In this document: piece after piece, positions 6,601 to 21,886 of the stretch | How positions within the stretch are numbered: position 1 is the stretch's first letter | How the letters are laid out: every line of letters starts with the position of its first letter | NCBI GenBank assembly: GCA_030431615.1 | Contig: JAUIID010000011.1 | Span: 1-47,971 of the forward strand | Direction: 5' to 3' | Length of the DNA: 47,971 nucleotides | Source of the DNA: Alphaproteobacteria bacterium | GTDB taxonomy: Bacteria > Pseudomonadota > Alphaproteobacteria > Geminicoccales > Geminicoccaceae | Made by a program: the position numbers and the translations under genes | The notes under the pieces: generated by a model | Seen by the model: the letters and a program-made list of their open reading frames with translations, nothing else | Databases searched by the model: none | What the model was told of the DNA's origin: nothing

Positions 6601-8895
6601 ATGAGCCAGGTCACGATCACCGTTCGCGCCCATGCGGCTGCCGGCAGCGATTTCAGCAAGCTGCGGCTCCTGCTCGACGGCCGGGTGGTCGGCGAGGCGG
6701 TGGTGCGGGGTGCTGCGCCGACGGACACGGTCTTCGTGCTCGAGGATGTCGACCCGGCGGTGGCGCACCGGATCGGCGTCGAGCACTACCACGACACCAC
6801 GGCACGGGCCCTGACCATCGAGAGCGTCACCATCGCCGGCACGGTGATCGAGGCGAGCCAGGGCGTGCAGGACGTGGGGCCGCATGACGGCCGCGTGCTG
6901 GTGGCCGGGGCTGACGCCGGCCGGATCGTCTATAACGGCACCTGGGAGGTCGACGTGCCGGCGAGCGTCTTCGGCGCGGAGCCGACGCCCGATCCCGATC
7001 CGGACCCCGAGCCCGACCCGGAGCCGGTGCCGGACCCGACCCCCGACCCCACGCCCGACCCAACGCCCGAACCTGTGCCCGATCCAGGCCCGACCGGGGA
7101 CGGCGGCGACACGGAGATCGTCCTGACGCTGGCCGCAGCGCCGGGTTCGGACTTCGCCAAGTTCAAGCTCCTGGTCGACGGTGCCGTGGTCGGCGAGGCG
7201 CGGGTGACCAGTGCGTCGGCGACCGAGTTCGCCTTCACGGTCGCCGGGCTCGACGATGGGGCACCGCACGAGGTGGCGATCGAGCACTATCACGACACGG
7301 CCGCGCGGGCGCTCGACATCCTGGGCGTGGCCGTCAACGGCACGGCGCTCGACCCGGCGGCCGGCACGCAGGACGTGGGGCCGCGGGACGGCAAGACGAT
7401 CTGGCACGGCGAGGCGGCGACGACGATCACCTATAACGGCACGTGGTATGTCCAGGTGCCGGCTGCCGTCTTCGGCGAGCCGGGGCCGGCCCCCGACCCG
7501 GATCCCGACCCCGACCCCGAGCCAGATCCTGGGCCAGATCCAGTTCCCGACCCGGATCCGGCACCGGACCCGGTCCCCGATCCGGTCCCGGGCGGCGATT
7601 ACGGGGCGCTGGTGGCCGGGCTCGGCGGCATCGCGCACTGGCGCTTCGCCGAGACGGCGGGGAGCCAGGCGGCGGATGCGCTGGGCTCGAGCGATGCCGG
7701 CCTGCGCGGCGGCGTCGGCCTCGGTGCGGCGAGCCTGGTCGGCGACGATGGCGCCGTCCGGCTCGACGGGCAGGACGACTATCTCCTGGTACCGTCGGGC
7801 GGCGACCCCATCCGGCTCATGATCCTCGGCGACAGCCTCTCGACGCCGACCTCGCCGCGCATGGCGGCGAGCGAGACGATCCCAGGCCAGCTGGCACCGC
7901 GGCTGGCGGAGGCCGGCTGGAACGTCGAGCTGATCAATCTCTCGAAGAGCGGCAGCACCGTGGTCGGCGGGCTCGACCGGCTCGAGGCCTATCTCGCCGA
8001 CGGCAGCAACCCGCTGCCGGACGCAGCACTCGTGGCGCTCGGCACCAATGACAGCCGGAGCAAGCTGGCGCTCGAGACGGTCGAGGCCAAGCTGCACGGC
8101 ATCATGAACCTGCTCGACCAGAACGAGGTGGCGACGCTGCTCGCCGGCAGCCCGGCGCAGTGGGCGGAGGCGGGCAAGGGCTATCCGACCGAAGCCCAGG
8201 CCGAGGCGTTCCACCAGATCTTCGCGGACGAGGCCGCCGAGCACGGTGCTGCCTACTACGCGGACTTCCTGGGGGCGGTCTTCGACGCCGGCGTCGACAC
8301 CTACACGAATGACGGCGTCCACCCGACGCCGGCGGGCAACACGCTGATCCTCGACGACCTGATCGACGAGATCGAGGAGCTGCTCGCACCCTTCGGCAAG
8401 GGCGATGCCGATCCCCTGGCGCTCGCCCAGGGCACCGTCTCCCTCTGGTTCGCGGCCGATGACCTGAACGGCAGGCAGGGCCTCCTGAGCAAGGATGCAT
8501 CGGGCTATGGCGGGGGCGGCGATGTCAGCCTCTATCTGGACGGGGATCAGCTGGTGCTCCGGCTGCAGGATGGCTCGAGCAGCCATGTGCTGAGCTCGGC
8601 GGACGGCGTGGTCACCGCGGGCGAGGCGCATCATGTGGCCTTCACCTTCGGGCAGGGCGGGGCAGCCCTCTGGCTCGACGGGGCCGAGGTGGCGCGCTCG
8701 GCCTATACGGGCGGGCTCGAGAGCAATGCCGAGCCGCTGGTGCTGGGCGCACTCGCCTGGACCAGTGCCCGCGGCACCGGCAACAAGATCACCGACGCGT
8801 TCGACGGCCGGCTCGACGAGGTGGCGATCTTCGACGGCCAGCTGACGCACGAGGCGGTGGCGATGCTGGCGGGTCTGAGCGAGGCCGCCGTGTAG
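6601..8895 (+). CDS. Multidomain carbohydrate-active protein: two CBM-like domains, SGNH hydrolase nested in a LamG domain
   Basis: This 764-residue protein has two homologous beta-sandwich domains of the xylan-binding/CBM60-like type (about 1-125 and 167-298). Each contains EHYHDT and ends in YNGTW..VP..VFG, and each is followed by an Asp-Pro/Glu-Pro linker. The first half of a concanavalin-like LamG domain follows (335-400, HWRF to DDYLLVPSGG). Next is a complete SGNH hydrolase with S412 in GDS, G451, N483 in GTND, and D571/H574 in DGVHP. The LamG domain then resumes from DPLALAQGTVSLWF (about 604) to the end (RLDEVAIFDG). No classical signal peptide is seen, so secretion may use a C-terminal signal. 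It probably deacylates polysaccharide. The ATG has no clear ribosome binding site. Confidence 0.85.
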   Translation: MSQVTITVRAHAAAGSDFSKLRLLLDGRVVGEAVVRGAAPTDTVFVLEDVDPAVAHRIGVEHYHDTTARALTIESVTIAGTVIEASQGVQDVGPHDGRVLVAGADAGRIVYNGTWEVDVPASVFGAEPTPDPDPDPEPDPEPVPDPTPDPTPDPTPEPVPDPGPTGDGGDTEIVLTLAAAPGSDFAKFKLLVDGAVVGEARVTSASATEFAFTVAGLDDGAPHEVAIEHYHDTAARALDILGVAVNGTALDPAAGTQDVGPRDGKTIWHGEAATTITYNGTWYVQVPAAVFGEPGPAPDPDPDPDPEPDPGPDPVPDPDPAPDPVPDPVPGGDYGALVAGLGGIAHWRFAETAGSQAADALGSSDAGLRGGVGLGAASLVGDDGAVRLDGQDDYLLVPSGGDPIRLMILGDSLSTPTSPRMAASETIPGQLAPRLAEAGWNVELINLSKSGSTVVGGLDRLEAYLADGSNPLPDAALVALGTNDSRSKLALETVEAKLHGIMNLLDQNEVATLLAGSPAQWAEAGKGYPTEAQAEAFHQIFADEAAEHGAAYYADFLGAVFDAGVDTYTNDGVHPTPAGNTLILDDLIDEIEELLAPFGKGDADPLALAQGTVSLWFAADDLNGRQGLLSKDASGYGGGGDVSLYLDGDQLVLRLQDGSSSHVLSSADGVVTAGEAHHVAFTFGQGGAALWLDGAEVARSAYTGGLESNAEPLVLGALAWTSARGTGNKITDAFDGRLDEVAIFDGQLTHEAVAMLAGLSEAAV
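6991..7098 (+). repeat. Asp-Pro-rich linker repeat, first copy
   Basis: This in-frame stretch encodes alternating P-D-P-D, P-E-P and P-T-P dipeptides between the two CBM-like domains. A second such linker (about 7492-7593) follows the second domain. Codons vary (CCC, CCG, CCA; GAT, GAC), so the repeat is kept at protein level as a stiff linker. Confidence 0.85.
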
Positions 8896-16390: not shown

Positions 16391-16672
16391 TTGGCGACCA
16401 TCGAGTTCAGTCGACAGTCGGTGGACGATCTCCGACAGATCCGCGACCACATAGCCCAGGACGATCCGGTTGCCGCCGACCGGGTCGTCCTTCGCATCCT
16501 CCAGTCGGTGCGGCTGTTCGAGCAGTTCCCGGCTCTTGGGGCTGGCTGGCGCGGCGATGCAACCCGTGCGCTGGTGATCCCGGGCCTTCCCTATCGCGTC
16601 CACTACCAGATCAATGGCGACGTCGTGGAAATCCTCACGATCGTCCATATGCGCAGGCGGTTTCCCCGATGA
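16391..16672 (+). CDS. ParE/RelE-family toxin
   Basis: This 93-residue protein has the ParE fold: FSRQSVDDLRQIRDHIAQDDP at the start, a central RILQSVRLFEQFPALGAG helix-turn, and the final strands ALVIPGLPYRVHYQINGDVVEILTIVHMRRRFP. The last strand with HMRRR holds the positively charged residues typical of the family. ParE proteins poison DNA gyrase, while RelE relatives cut mRNA; sequence alone favours ParE. It starts with TTG, 4 bp after the antitoxin stop. The pair is complete, so it may be active. Confidence 0.86.
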   Translation: MATIEFSRQSVDDLRQIRDHIAQDDPVAADRVVLRILQSVRLFEQFPALGAGWRGDATRALVIPGLPYRVHYQINGDVVEILTIVHMRRRFPR

Positions 16673-16691
16673 GCGTGTGGCACCACGCGGG

Positions 16692-17372
16692 TCACTGCCG
16701 CGGCGGGCGCCAGCCGGCGGCGAGGGCCTCGCCTTCGCTGCAGAACCAGCGCTCGCCCTTGCTCTCGGTGATCCTCGTCCGGTCGTAATGTGGCGACCAG
16801 GGTGTGTGGTAGATGCGGTCGCCGCTGCTCTGGCTGATATTGCCCTTGATGGCGCAGCCGTCCGGGGCGGCCTGCCCGGCCGCCTGCCAGCGGCGGGCGC
16901 GGTATTCCCAGGGTGGCTCGAGGCTCGCCTGCCAGAGGCCGGCGAGCTTGGCTTCGGCCTCCTCCTGCAGGGGAACGAGGCGGACCGAGTACCTCACGAA
17001 GGCGAGGGCGAGGCCTTCGGCGACCAGCCAGGCCGAGAGGTCCTGGCCCGCATGGCTGCAGATGGCGATGGACCTGCCATAGTCGTCGAGGCCGCTGACC
17101 TCGCAGGTCACGGCTTCGCCTGCGACGCGCTTGGCGAGGCGGGTGGCGGCCACGACGCCGCAGCGTCGCAGCGCCGGCGGGCCGTCGCATTGCTGGCCGA
17201 GCTCGGGCGCGTCGATGTCGGCGAGCCGCACCACGGTGGCGCCGAGGCGGATGGTGTCGCCGTCGATGACCTCGGCCGGGCCGGTGAGCGTGGTCGCCGC
17301 TGCATCGGCGGACCACGGCAGCAGGGCGAGCACGACGAGCAGCGACAGGCGATACCGCCGGCGCGGCGCCAT
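16692..17372 (-). CDS. Secreted thermonuclease-like protein with C-terminal sunset-type domain
   Basis: This 226-residue protein has a signal peptide (1-24, ending ADA) and a staphylococcal-nuclease domain. Catalytic-type residues are in VIDGDTIRL (D37, D39), VRLADIDAPELGQ (R49, D54, E57) and DDYGR (R100). A C-terminal motif, CAIKGNIS....GDRIYHTPWSPHY and ERWFCSEGEALAAGW, resembles the 'sunset' domain found after SNase domains. It should be an extracytoplasmic, calcium-dependent endonuclease. It is convergent with the ParE gene, with 19 bp between stops. Five or more cysteines suggest disulphides in the periplasm. Confidence 0.88.
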   Translation of the reverse strand: MAPRRRYRLSLLVVLALLPWSADAAATTLTGPAEVIDGDTIRLGATVVRLADIDAPELGQQCDGPPALRRCGVVAATRLAKRVAGEAVTCEVSGLDDYGRSIAICSHAGQDLSAWLVAEGLALAFVRYSVRLVPLQEEAEAKLAGLWQASLEPPWEYRARRWQAAGQAAPDGCAIKGNISQSSGDRIYHTPWSPHYDRTRITESKGERWFCSEGEALAAGWRPPRQ

Positions 17373-17665: not shown

Positions 17666-19396
17666 TTGATCAGCTCAGCCGTCTCCTTGGTGCGCGCGAA
17701 GCACAGGCTTTCGATTCTCGGGCCTTTCCGCCTGCAGGACGGAGCAAGGTGCGATGTGCGGATCGCCAGCCGAAAAAGCCGGGCATTGCTTGCCATGCTG
17801 GCGCTTTCCCCACATGGCCTGCGGACCCGTGCGTGGCTGCAGGACAAGCTCTGGGGCAGTCGCGCGCCCATGCAGGCGCGCTCCAGCCTGCGTCGCGAGC
17901 TTGCCAATCTCCGCGCGGTCCTTGCGGAAGCCGGCGTGCCCATCCTGCGCTGCGAGGAGGACAGAGTCGGTTTGCTGCTCGGCGACGTCGAGATTGATGC
18001 GTTGGAGGCGGCCGAAACAGATGCACCGCTCAACGGCGAGAGCCTGCTCGAGGGCATGGATATCGCCGGTGAGGAGGGTTTCGAGGACTGGTTGCGGGAG
18101 CAGCGTTTGCGGCTCGAGCGGGCACCGCCGCCCGCCCGCGCTGCATCCATCGGACCGGTTGTTGCGAGCCTGCCTACTGCGCCCCGGGCGGTTGATCCGG
18201 CGGTTGTGCGCCTGGCACTTATGCCGGTGGCTGCGGTATCTCCCAAGGTTGCACTGCTCGCCGCCGGCGAATGCCTGCTCGACCGGCTGGTGAACACGTT
18301 GAACGATCATGGAGGTGTAAAGATCTTCGATCATCGCCGGCTCTCTCTCCGGCCCTCGATCGAGGACGAGGCGCCCGACGCGCTACTGACGTTGCGAGCG
18401 CAGGGAGGGGACGACACCTCAATCCTTTGCCTGCAGCTCGTTCACGCGTCGGATGGCCGAGTCCTGATGGGGCGCACCTTGCGGCTTGACGCTGAGACGG
18501 GCCTCGACGCGCTGGCCGAGCGGCCGCTGCAGGCCGCTGTCGTTTGCCGGCTGGCCGAGGAGATCCTTCGGTCGTTGGCGGCGGACGCGCCGTCGCGCGC
18601 CACAGCACGGCATCTGGCGATCATTCAAGTGCGCGCCGCGATCCACAAGATGTTCGGCGCCGGCACGACCGATGTCGAAGGGGCGAGGCGCTGCCTCGAT
18701 CGGGCGACGAGTCTCCTCGAATGCGGCGTCTTTCACGCCTGGCACGCCTATCTTGGCGCCTTTGCCCTCGACCCGATGGCGTCGGTAGGCGGCAGCACGA
18801 AGCATCGAAGCCTCCGCGACGAGACACGCGAGCACGCCCGGCGCGCGCTCGAGCTGGACCCGCAGAACCCCTTGACCCTGGCGCTGCTGGCCCATGCCTA
18901 CGGCTTCGTGCTGCGCGACCTGGAGGAGGCCGGACGTCTCCTTTCGATCGCCCGGTCGAGCGGTGCCGATCACATCATGCTGCATGACAGCGAGGCGCTC
19001 CACGCCCTCTACACGGGCGAGCTCGCGCGCGCCTATCGCTCGGCACTGCGGGCCGAGGAGCTCGGGCGGTGCCTGCCCTACCGCTACTGTTTCGAAACGA
19101 CGCTCTTGATGCTCGAGTCGCTACGCGGCGATTTCGCAGGGGCGATCCGGCATGGCGAGGCCTCGATCCGGCTTCGGGACAACGGCCAAGGCAGTCCCTA
19201 TCCTCCGACCTTGCGCTATCTCGGCGCCAGCTATGCGATGGCCGGGAACAGCGAGGCCGCCGAGAGCACCTTCGCACGCTTGCGCGAGATCGAGCCCGAC
19301 CTCTCGTCCGCGAAGGTCGACGATCCAGGCTATCCGCTGCCATCGGGTGCGGCCCGCGAGCTCGTCCGATCGGCGCTGGAACGAACGGGGAGTTGA
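17666..19396 (+). CDS. SARP-like winged-helix regulator with TPR region
   Basis: This protein of about 576 residues begins with an OmpR/SARP-type winged helix (about 13-115; HRLSILGPFRLQDG, RKSRALLAMLAL, TRAWLQDKLWG, SSLRRELANLRAVL), the layout used by BTAD-type activators. A middle part (about 170-300) resembles the adenylate-cyclase-associated 'LRPS/AEEILR' sensor region without a catalytic site. The C-terminal half (about 310-560) is TPR-like (ARRALELDPQNPLTLALLAHA, EHSTFARLREIEPD-type repeats). It probably activates or represses the two genes downstream, 28 bp away. Start codon is uncertain: TTG at 17666, TTG at 17687 or GTG at 17690. Confidence 0.75.
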   Translation: MISSAVSLVRAKHRLSILGPFRLQDGARCDVRIASRKSRALLAMLALSPHGLRTRAWLQDKLWGSRAPMQARSSLRRELANLRAVLAEAGVPILRCEEDRVGLLLGDVEIDALEAAETDAPLNGESLLEGMDIAGEEGFEDWLREQRLRLERAPPPARAASIGPVVASLPTAPRAVDPAVVRLALMPVAAVSPKVALLAAGECLLDRLVNTLNDHGGVKIFDHRRLSLRPSIEDEAPDALLTLRAQGGDDTSILCLQLVHASDGRVLMGRTLRLDAETGLDALAERPLQAAVVCRLAEEILRSLAADAPSRATARHLAIIQVRAAIHKMFGAGTTDVEGARRCLDRATSLLECGVFHAWHAYLGAFALDPMASVGGSTKHRSLRDETREHARRALELDPQNPLTLALLAHAYGFVLRDLEEAGRLLSIARSSGADHIMLHDSEALHALYTGELARAYRSALRAEELGRCLPYRYCFETTLLMLESLRGDFAGAIRHGEASIRLRDNGQGSPYPPTLRYLGASYAMAGNSEAAESTFARLREIEPDLSSAKVDDPGYPLPSGAARELVRSALERTGS

Positions 19397-19424
19397 CAAA
19401 ACAGAACAAGGAAGGGGCGAAACG

Positions 19425-20306
19425 ATGCCGGTTCCTGGCCAATACACAGATAATGAATATGACGAGGCCTTTCTCTGGCGGGGCCACGAGCTGGTCATGT
19501 TCGCCACTGATGCAAGCGGTGTAATCGAACCCACCGAGTCGCGCGGCGTTTCCTCGCTCGGTCGCAGCAGATCGCTCAGCCGTAGCCGAAGTCGCTCGCG
19601 CAGTCGCAGCCGGAGTCGCAGCCGATCACGTGGGGTTCTGGCGGCTCGCGGCGATCCGGCGACCCAGCAGCAGAACTGGCAGGAGTTGCGTCGGCTCTTC
19701 GACCGCGCATCGAAAGTTTACGGCGGCTGGCATCGAATCGTCCTGCCCTACCCGGAGACGCCGAGTGAGACGGGGAAGGAAATCCAGTGCATGTTGAAGA
19801 TGCAGGCCGAGCTCAGGGGTGATCCGATGCGGCAGGCCGAAATCCGCCAGCAGATGTTTCTCGACGATATCACCGACCTGCTTCGTCCGCTCGGCCTCGG
19901 CGAGGTCGCGGGATTCGAAGTTACCGAGGAGCTGATCATCAACGTCCTCGATCTCGCCGGCCTGATCGGCTTCGTCTACAAGGACATTTTCCAGCGGCCG
20001 CGACCGAGCGAGTCGGTGCCGATGTTGCGCCCGATGCTCGATATCCCGCCGCACGCCTCCTATCCGAGCAATCATGCCCTGCAGATGTTTTGCGTCGCCG
20101 AGGTGATGACCCGACTGCTGCCGGAGAATCCGGCGACGCACGAACTGTTCTTCATCGCCCAACGCGTCGCCGAAAACCGGGAGTACGCGGGGCTTCACTA
20201 TCCCTCCGACAGCGCTGCCGGCCGCGAACTGGCGAAGCGGGTCTGTCCTGTGCTCGTGCAGGTGCTCAGGCGACAGATGACCGACGCGACGCGGGAGTGG
20301 TTCTGA
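19425..20306 (+). CDS. Soluble PAP2 / vanadium-haloperoxidase-fold enzyme with Ser-Arg repeat
   Basis: This 293-residue protein has all three PAP2 motifs: K186-X6-RP (KDIFQRPRP), YPSNHAL (215-217, Asn in place of the usual Gly), and R252-X5-H258-X3-D262 (REYAGLHYPSD). These bind phosphate or vanadate. Without membrane helices or a signal peptide, it resembles soluble vanadium haloperoxidases or phosphatases. Residues 47-69 form an almost pure Ser-Arg tract, nine SR dipeptides after a short RSRSL lead, very unusual in bacteria. The ATG follows GGAAGGGG, 28 bp after the regulator. Its stop overlaps the start of the subtilase gene (TGATG). Substrate unknown. Confidence 0.8.
   Translation: MPVPGQYTDNEYDEAFLWRGHELVMFATDASGVIEPTESRGVSSLGRSRSLSRSRSRSRSRSRSRSRSRGVLAARGDPATQQQNWQELRRLFDRASKVYGGWHRIVLPYPETPSETGKEIQCMLKMQAELRGDPMRQAEIRQQMFLDDITDLLRPLGLGEVAGFEVTEELIINVLDLAGLIGFVYKDIFQRPRPSESVPMLRPMLDIPPHASYPSNHALQMFCVAEVMTRLLPENPATHELFFIAQRVAENREYAGLHYPSDSAAGRELAKRVCPVLVQVLRRQMTDATREWF
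19563..19631 (+). repeat. Ser-Arg dipeptide-coding tract
   Basis: Residues 47-69 of the PAP2-fold protein are encoded by mixed synonymous codons (AGC, AGT, TCG, TCA for Ser; CGC, CGT, CGA, CGG, AGA for Arg). The DNA is degenerate while the peptide is regular, so the dipeptide repeat has been kept by selection on the protein rather than being recent slippage. Confidence 0.9.
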
Positions 20307-21886
20307 TGGTCGTGGCCAGCGGTGATCTCGACAGGTTCTACAGCTTCTATCTCTGGCACCTGCATCACGCAGGGGTGCTCGGCATCACGCCAGTGCCGGA
20401 GCCGGGTGTGCCTATCAAGGGTAAGTTAACATTCGACGACGCCCTGTGGAGCGAGCTGATGGGGAGCGCCAACCCGAGGATCGCGATCATCGACAATGGC
20501 GTCTCCACGCTGCACCCGAACCTGCCGGCCGGCACCATCGTCGCGTCTGTCGATCTCGCCACGCATCCCTACGGCGCCACCTATGAAACAATCTGTGGGT
20601 CGGGCGATCAGCCGACCGAGACGCCCGTCAAGCATTTCCTTGATCTCGACTTGCACAAGCTCGGTCTCGAGGGGGACGGGTGCCTCGCCGACATTGCAAC
20701 CGAATTGCGAGAAAATTGGGGAGTGCGGCGCGTTCCGGGCGCCTATTCGGAGGAGTTTTGCCCGCATGGCACCGCCTGCGCCGGGCTGGTGGCCGGGCGA
20801 TGGCTCAAGCCGCGGGAAGGCCAAGGCGATCCGGCGCCGATCCGATACTACGGCGTGGACCCGGAGGCCGAGATCATTGCGGTCAACACGCCGTTCGGTC
20901 CGGAAATAAAGCCAATCATTGCCGGCATTCTCTATGCCTTGATGCACAGGGCGAACGCGATCCTGCTGCCGCGGACGGTTTATGACGCGCGGTCGCGAAA
21001 ACGCGCAAGCGAGGCAAGGCCCTGCGAGCATGAGGCGCCAGGCGACAAGGACGCGTCTAAGGCGCCGCCATTCGGGCACGAAACGCGAATCGACCGCGAT
21101 CAGCGCCTTCTCAAACAGCAAAAGACTTTCGAGCGGCTGCTCGACAAGGTGGTCGCGAAAATGCCCGTCATCGTCGCTGCGGGTAATGGCGGCCTAGACG
21201 AACTCGAGTATCCGGCGTCACTAGCCTCCAAGAAGAAGCCAAAGATCGGAAGCAACGACAAGAACGATCCTGCTGACAGGGAAGATGCGGACAAGGAGCC
21301 CTGGATCCGTAATCTCATCGTCGTCGGTGCCGTGAACGCCAAGAAAAAGCCGTCCTCCTACAATAGCGGACTCGCGGACGTCACATTGCTGGCGCCGAGC
21401 GATGATGCGGAAACCCTGCATGCCGGGATCCAGCGCCTCGACGCGGATGGGCGGCGGGTCAAGGACCATGGGCTGGCAGCCGGGACGGGGTGGCCCATGA
21501 GTCCAGCGGGAGAACCTGGCCCGACGGACTTCTCCGACTGGACGGTCCTGGCGATCCATGTCGGCGGGCCGGAGAACTGGCGCCTCGGCGACCGGCTCGA
21601 GGAGGTTCCAACCCCGACCCACGGCACCGCCCGCACTCCCCTCTATGTCCCGTTCGGTGGCACGTCGGCGGCCTGCTCGCTCACCGCAGGGGTCGTCTCG
21701 CTCCTGCAGCGCGCCAAATGGAAATATTCGTGCGGAGGCACGCAGTTGCACGCGGCGGAGGCCATTGAGGCCCTGAGAGCCGGTTCGACATCCGAGGCTC
21801 CATCGAACAAGCCGTTGCTCAACGCCAGGAAGGCGGTCGATAGCCTGAAGGACAAGCTCCAGACACCGTCGAAGCCGGACGACTGA
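20306..21886 (+). CDS. Cytoplasmic subtilisin-like serine protease (S8 family)
   Basis: This 526-residue protein has the complete subtilase triad: D63 in IAIIDNGVS, H154 in CPHGTACAGLVAG, S454 in FGGTSAACSLTAGV, with the oxyanion N294 in VIVAAGNGG. There is no signal peptide or recognisable prodomain; the first 55 residues (FYSFYLWHLHHAG) are short and unlike an I9 inhibitor. Two charged, low-complexity insertions (about 225-275 and 308-333, rich in Lys, Asp and Arg) distinguish it from secreted subtilisins. Its ATG overlaps the PAP2-gene stop by 1 bp. It probably acts with the PAP2-like protein, perhaps processing it or a common target. Unconfirmed. Confidence 0.85.
   Translation: MVVASGDLDRFYSFYLWHLHHAGVLGITPVPEPGVPIKGKLTFDDALWSELMGSANPRIAIIDNGVSTLHPNLPAGTIVASVDLATHPYGATYETICGSGDQPTETPVKHFLDLDLHKLGLEGDGCLADIATELRENWGVRRVPGAYSEEFCPHGTACAGLVAGRWLKPREGQGDPAPIRYYGVDPEAEIIAVNTPFGPEIKPIIAGILYALMHRANAILLPRTVYDARSRKRASEARPCEHEAPGDKDASKAPPFGHETRIDRDQRLLKQQKTFERLLDKVVAKMPVIVAAGNGGLDELEYPASLASKKKPKIGSNDKNDPADREDADKEPWIRNLIVVGAVNAKKKPSSYNSGLADVTLLAPSDDAETLHAGIQRLDADGRRVKDHGLAAGTGWPMSPAGEPGPTDFSDWTVLAIHVGGPENWRLGDRLEEVPTPTHGTARTPLYVPFGGTSAACSLTAGVVSLLQRAKWKYSCGGTQLHAAEAIEALRAGSTSEAPSNKPLLNARKAVDSLKDKLQTPSKPDD

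Follow-up and report, generated by a model that had tools for sequence, protein, structure and literature searches.

Periodic N-terminal tails with changing repeat units on PAP2-fold proteins encoded between a regulator and a peptidase

The window considered here is a stretch of 47,971 nucleotides of contig JAUIID010000011.1, from an alphaproteobacterium of the family Geminicoccaceae. Within it, three genes on the forward strand encode a putative transcriptional regulator, a PAP2-fold protein bearing a Ser-Arg tract, and a subtilase, an arrangement that we refer to, here and in other genomes, as the cassette. Just upstream, at 16391-17372, a gene for a ParE-like toxin (+) lies beside one for a homologue of the staphylococcal nuclease (-). 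The features of the cassette are as follows.

17666..19396, + strand: BTAD/SARP-like regulator with TPR repeats; start uncertain, profile match from 17678
19410..19417, + strand: GGAAGGGG, possible ribosome-binding site, read from the sequence upstream of the PAP2 ATG
19425..20306, + strand: tailed PAP2 protein (translation, 293 aa, ATG start; PF01569, E 1.4e-9)
19425..19562, + strand: pre-tail segment, residues 1-46, variable in the alignment of homologues; pLDDT <50
19563..19631, + strand: periodic tail, residues 47-69, SR units, from sequence and codons; predicted disordered
19677..20303, + strand: catalytic core, residues 85-293, with K186-x6-R193-P194, S215-N216-H217 and R252-x5-H258-x3-D262
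20306..21886, + strand: S8 subtilase, 526 aa (PF00082, E 1.1e-10); no evident signal peptide

The tail of the window protein reads RSRSLSRSRSRSRSRSRSRSRSR, with Arg or Ser at 22 of 23 positions (Leu 51 is the sole exception) and nine uninterrupted SR units at residues 52 to 69. The initial annotation had described nine SR dipeptides in a row written in mixed codons, which reading of the ORF and codon counts verified: in the 18-residue perfect part, Ser is encoded by AGC (4), AGT (3), TCG (1), and TCA (1), and Arg by CGC (4), CGT (2), CGA (2), and CGG (1). Residual repetition in the DNA consists of a 24-nt unit present twice at 83% and a 12-nt unit present 3.5 times at 70% (TRF). In an AlphaFold2 model built from eight sequences, residues 1 to 79 have pLDDT values below 50 and are predicted to be disordered.

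The core that follows is helical in the same model. PAP2 is the one Pfam family matched by the tailed protein at E 0.001; PF01569 spans residues 174 to 281 with 38.2 bits, against a curated cut-off of 27.2 (40.3 bits in a search of the organism's own genome), and NCBIfam, which returned sub-cut-off matches only, named no family for it. Across 17 diverse rows, K186, R193, P194, S215, H217, R252, H258, and D262 are invariant. The window protein carries two variants of the PAP2 motifs, Asn for Gly in S215-N216-H217 and Asn for Ser in N251-R252x5H258x3D262; the former gives PSNH, unlike the PSGH usual in class A acid phosphatases. The best fold match of the predicted core is the class A acid phosphatase 7f17 (Z 21.2, rmsd 2.3, 197 residues aligned), and PhoN 2a96 matches at Z 21.0. 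Likeness to the class A nonspecific acid phosphatases (PhoN/PhoC; 7f17, 2a96, 1eoi) extends over residues 81 to 293 at Z 19 to 21 and includes the PAP2 catalytic residues, whereas the vanadium-dependent haloperoxidases, larger proteins of the same superfamily fold, match less well (Z 13 to 15). Unlike the class A enzymes, the window protein has no evident secretory signal peptide by eye, and it has a periodic tail and a regulator-peptidase cassette. We take the protein to be a soluble enzyme with the class A acid-phosphatase fold and intact PAP2 catalytic motifs. Both the PAP2 fold and the position of the tract, which follows a short N-terminal part and precedes the enzyme core, had been proposed earlier and are upheld by the Pfam score, the catalytic motifs, and the phosphatase-like structural match in the one case and by the residue boundaries in the other.

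The window regulator has weak TPR matches in Pfam, none above a curated cut-off. A homologue at another locus (L095) matches BTAD (PF03704) and has the BTAD and TPR layout of SARP/BTAD regulators of the AfsR type, and homologues are annotated as "SARP family transcriptional regulator" or "winged helix-turn-helix." Regulators of the AfsR type are tied to antibiotic clusters, whereas the regulator here is tied to a tailed PAP2 protein and a peptidase: at 42 of 46 loci the gene immediately preceding PAP2 falls in the regulator BLAST cluster, in 3 of these on the opposite strand. On the other side, the S8 ATG of the window overlaps the PAP2 stop (TGATG). D63, H154, N294, and S454 are invariant among eight aligned S8 proteins; we take D63, H154, and S454 to be the Asp-His-Ser triad and N294 the oxyanion Asn. 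The adjoining gene had been called a subtilase, and the PF00082 match, together with these residues intact in 8 of 8 proteins, bears this out.

The next gene, or a fused domain, belongs to a peptidase group at 35 of the 46 loci: two S8-type BLAST clusters (19 and 5 loci), a C1-type cluster (5), A4 peptidases (2), and PAP2-S8 fusions (4), with Pfam supporting some members of each group and not every member; in the C1-like members at L081, L086, and L087 Pfam found nothing. Ten further next-gene proteins comprise seven of the S8 type and three without a Pfam match. The fusions (L082, L083, L084, and L101) are single proteins in the order tail-PAP2-S8, and those at L082, L084, and L101 have twin-arginine-like starts by eye and are followed by a gene for a trypsin-like protease. 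The same trio of genes can be seen in public annotation of Phyllobacterium, Rhizobium, Palleronia, Phaeobacter, Paracoccus, and Pontibrevibacter. At E 0.01, PADLOC-DB 2.0.0 (2023) yielded no match for the three window proteins or for four of six homologous or neighbouring proteins; the matches were those of the L083 fusion to a subtilase model (1.6e-8) and, weakly, of the L101 trypsin-like protein to Avs1b (0.0028). Among the papers listed by searches of an open-access library, none describes the cassette.

Removal of near-identical ORFs from 189 hits left 101 distinct PAP2 ORFs over all fetched loci, and the 90 that matched better than 1e-35 were treated as cassette-type. A periodic N-terminal tail is present in all 87 of these that could be assessed (L057, L011, and L229 could not be judged): 80 tails, 12 to 52 residues long, are perfect, and 7, judged by eye, are short or imperfect (L023, L007, L033, L055, L148, L151, and L194). 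None of the 11 more distant PAP2 ORFs has a tail; ten have signal-peptide-like starts by eye, and the other, L001, is the membrane-type PAP2 of the window's own genome. A comparable tract was found in none of the 522 neighbouring ORFs of at least 100 aa at 46 loci, and comparison of these counts confirmed that the Ser-Arg tract is real and above chance. Tract-like matches in other frames are antisense to known tails, except for one Gly-Ser frame, which runs antisense to the window ORF 6601-8895 (+). That ORF encodes a 764-aa protein in which CBM60, GDSL lipase, and laminin-G-like domains are accompanied by two Asp-Pro-rich linkers; these repeat their dipeptide impurely, whereas the SR tail is strict.

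The first ten relatives (seven genome loci and three plasmid loci) all have a short-unit tract at the equivalent place, with SR, RA, SK, TK, NRD, NK, or NR as the unit, and more distant relatives have GNA, GNT, SNT, ARD, NSF, GMD, VSG, ENA, NGD, GGLN, GGTH, GAVD, and others. A search based on the regulator recovered further adjoining tailed PAP2 genes with the units GGA, GGF, GQ, EAV, SAY, and GGQ; 24 of the 55 regulator-homologue loci checked, many of them TPR-only matches, had neither a PAP2 gene in the fetched flank nor a tract. In a phylum sample, 24 of 398 genomes matched at 1e-25, of which 22 were of the tailed type, 2 of these lying outside the window's class, and 2 were signal-peptide-type phosphatases. 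In a sample of the Rhodovulum family, 30 of 394 genomes matched at 1e-30, with 29 tailed and the remaining one (L057) not judgeable. If confirmed, these surveys would mean that an uncharacterised cassette is distributed across Alphaproteobacteria and outside that class. Homologues keep a tract written in variable codons, the pattern that the initial annotation had proposed to look for.

Within a perfect tail the unit is identical throughout, and between lineages it changes wholesale. We counted 48 units among the 80 perfect tails (SR, SK, RA, NK, NR, TK, NRD, GNT, NSF, GGA, EAV, and others), with unit lengths of 2, 3, 4, 5, and 6 residues, every chemistry, and no residue common to all tails. 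The unit was shared by all 27 pairs of proteins with 90 to 100% core identity and by 33 of 33 at 80% or more, by 27 of 42 at 60 to 70%, and by 12 of 433 at 40 to 50%; near relatives with differing units include SK/SR at 78%, TGV/AGV at 68%, GGF/NSF at 67%, and EAV/GNQ at 66%. On a 79-row tree, obtained by a quick search after 8 near-duplicates were dropped and having 17 of its 76 inner branches starred and 27 open, the 53 unit labels require at least 54 changes, and 5 are needed to account for which units contain K or R. Where a genome has two or three cassettes, as ten do, their units are not identical, which is expected by chance given so many units; the three tailed cassettes of one genome (G763; L084, L157, and L147) have TK, GGQ, and GGQGAY, the last two being alike.

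The window protein shares its alternating Ser-Arg run with eukaryotic SR proteins and their RS domains, and a eukaryote-like role specific to SR had been suggested for it. As a general explanation this is not supported by the units of its relatives, since homologous tails are built of NK, GNT, GGA, and so forth and SR is the unit in 5 of 80 perfect tails; moreover, unlike SR proteins, the window protein has no RNA-binding domain by Pfam. As to whether homologues might lack the tract and its charge, the outcome was mixed. The tract persists in homologues, and all 25 rows of the window's clade have a basic residue in the unit, but charge is not kept across the family: NRD units are net neutral, GAVD, EAV, and ENA units are acidic, and K or R is absent from 48 of the 79 tree rows.

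The codons of the tails were compared by shuffling them within each of 71 tails, 9 near-duplicate strains or species having been dropped. Of 1634 comparisons between adjacent units, 494 show a shared codon, where shuffling predicts 610.6 ± 17.8 (z -6.6), and 58 of the 71 tails lie below their own shuffle mean (for the window tail alone, 0.19 versus 0.24, the difference is not significant). The remainder of the same genes, taken as a control, gave z values of -1.0, -1.7, -0.4, +2.0, and +0.5. Units three or six positions apart agree in their codons slightly more often than after shuffling (z +3.0 and +2.5), which is a trace of block duplication of DNA. Codon homozygosity is 0.392 in tails and 0.429 in the rest of the gene (p 0.013), so tail codons are at least as mixed. 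A recent microsatellite is ruled out by the scrambled codons.

Strain-to-strain variation was followed in 15 Rhizobium-group alleles (L024 and 14 that were fetched, 13 of these from 63 records), which have 6, 7, 8, or 10 NK units, a spread that is not an unbiased range, the alleles having been picked partly for differing lengths. Between strains whole units only are gained or lost, and the 222 tail codons without exception specify Asn or Lys, each residue being written with both of its codons. In the core of 12 alleles, 122 of 229 codons are polymorphic with synonymous changes only and 39 with amino-acid changes; L166, L167, and L168 were omitted from this count for the different length of their frame after the tail, and as they also have no annotated PAP2 gene, the enzyme may be decaying in these strains. 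In L024 and L160-L173 a period-5 series (LNKSV, ANKSV, LNKAS) precedes the NK tail and looks older, as if one unit had been replaced by another. The mixed codons and the dip between adjacent units agree with the earlier proposal that the peptide rather than the DNA repeat has been maintained. Since the tail repeats itself, its unit switches wholesale, and its codons are scrambled, selection seems to hold self-repetition, keeping the tail periodic while leaving the repeated peptide free to switch.

Several explanations of these tails must be weighed. That the DNA or RNA repeat itself matters, as a contingency locus or an RNA structure, would suit the differences in copy number between strains, but the changes are in-frame and of whole units, neighbouring codons are scrambled and dissimilar, and the nucleotide sequence is wholly different from one unit to another, so that we consider this most improbable. 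The tail could alternatively be a hydrophilic spacer built as a repeat by DNA slippage, for which length and disorder are needed and exact periodicity is not. Length changes by whole units, the closer codon agreement at lags 3 and 6, the 24-nt DNA repeat in the window tract, and the predicted disorder and wide range of lengths all agree with such an origin; against it, scrambled codons and adjacent units less alike than shuffles imply that the arrays are not recent expansions, and an indifferent spacer should by then show conservative replacements, and neither the neighbouring ORFs nor the more distant PAP2 ORFs have any such tract. A spacer is an unlikely answer, though a better one than the binding of polyanions (polyphosphate, nucleic acid, or acidic lipid) to bring substrate to the phosphatase, as the initial annotation had proposed. 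The basic residue kept throughout the window's clade and the phosphatase fold of the enzyme favor the latter idea; since NRD is neutral and most rows of the tree have no K or R, polyanion binding cannot be the family-wide function, and we give it a low probability. A spacer would need no exact periodicity, a single external ligand would not allow such variety, and a role for the DNA would not scramble codons, which leaves contact with an identical tail or with a peptidase that changes along with it.

The latter is the main rival, namely that the tail presents an array of many identical sites at which the peptidase of its own cassette (S8, C1, A4, or trypsin-like) would dock or cut, so that the PAP2 enzyme is activated, released, or inactivated; the unit would then change with the preference of the peptidase. 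Cutting by the adjoining subtilase had been among the earlier suggestions for the window tract. In its favor are the peptidase next to or fused with PAP2 at most loci and the S8 majority among the further next genes, the overlapping genes and intact triad of the window, and a unit chemistry that roughly tracks peptidase class, K/R units occurring with the S8 peptidases of the window's clade, GNT/GNA with A4, and Gly-rich units with His, Asn, or Asp with the C1-like group. However, unit and peptidase both track a single tree and their association is not independent, the C1-like group includes the three members without a Pfam match, and such an array demands repeated co-evolution of specificity across dozens of unit changes. 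In addition, the residue before the S8 YP motif, which we take to be the S1-pocket position, where an acidic residue would presumably be expected in a basic-specific pocket, is E, A, S, I, A, V, V, and L in the eight aligned proteins, with no conserved acidic residue. On balance we think a peptidase-facing array is probably not the explanation, though it is the strongest of the alternatives.

The reading that we prefer, to which we assign a probability of about 40%, is that the tail is multivalent and makes contacts without a fixed register, self-contact being the likeliest. The tail would be a disordered segment acting through many equivalent contacts, and its likeliest partner would be another copy of the same tail, by which enzyme molecules would cluster or assemble. 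The cassette would be turned on by the regulator, and once assembled, the enzyme would be set free or degraded by the peptidase. Self-contact is preferred because a self-recognising tail can change its unit without any partner changing. We count in its favor the presence of the tail in every assessable cassette-type PAP2 and its absence from the distant ones, the number of unit changes and the sharing of units among close relatives, the dip in codon sharing and the well-mixed tail codons, the unchanged NK peptide of the Rhizobium-group alleles, the differing units within genomes that have several cassettes, and the predicted disorder. Against it, like-charged (SR)n or (NK)n tails should repel one another unless a polyanion bridges them, the range of unit lengths and chemistries speaks against a single assembly shared by all, seven of the tails are short or imperfectly periodic, and the constancy of the adjoining peptidase is explained no less well by a peptidase-facing role. 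Block duplication contributed to the arrays, and slippage loss of identical neighbours may itself cause the lag-1 dip. A bolder version of self-contact, in which selection acts on self-similarity itself and the tail is an orthogonal homotypic recognition tag by which the enzymes of a cassette recognise only their own kind, would belong to an undescribed system of regulator, tailed phosphatase, and peptidase; we regard it as conceivable but doubtful.

The usual view of tandem peptide repeats is that they are either slippage noise or a single conserved motif. In this family periodicity has outlasted the many changes of unit, the codon patterns indicate that the peptide and not the DNA is held, and being repetitive seems to matter more than which letters repeat. 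If confirmed, the family would provide some fifty naturally occurring tails that can be interchanged on a single enzyme scaffold, and the role of an exactly periodic disordered segment would become directly testable. Repeat units of the circumsporozoite protein differ between Plasmodium species, and these repeats are the nearest known parallel that we could name; they are described as homogeneous, differing between types, varying in copy number by slippage, and showing synonymous variation (PMC3729580). Unlike the tailed PAP2 proteins, the circumsporozoite protein is a surface antigen of a eukaryotic parasite, without an enzyme core or a peptidase cassette, and has far fewer units.

The surroundings of some cassettes have features of their own. 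One neighbour BLAST cluster recurs in the flanks of six cassettes (L025, L085, L069-L071, and L088); its members at L025, L085, and L069 match the animal-type haem peroxidase family PF03098, and that at L088 has no Pfam match. In Rhizobium johnstonii, on pRL12 (L024:7610-9996), the cassette is followed by genes annotated as a HEXXH putative peptide-modification protein and a ThiF adenylyltransferase.
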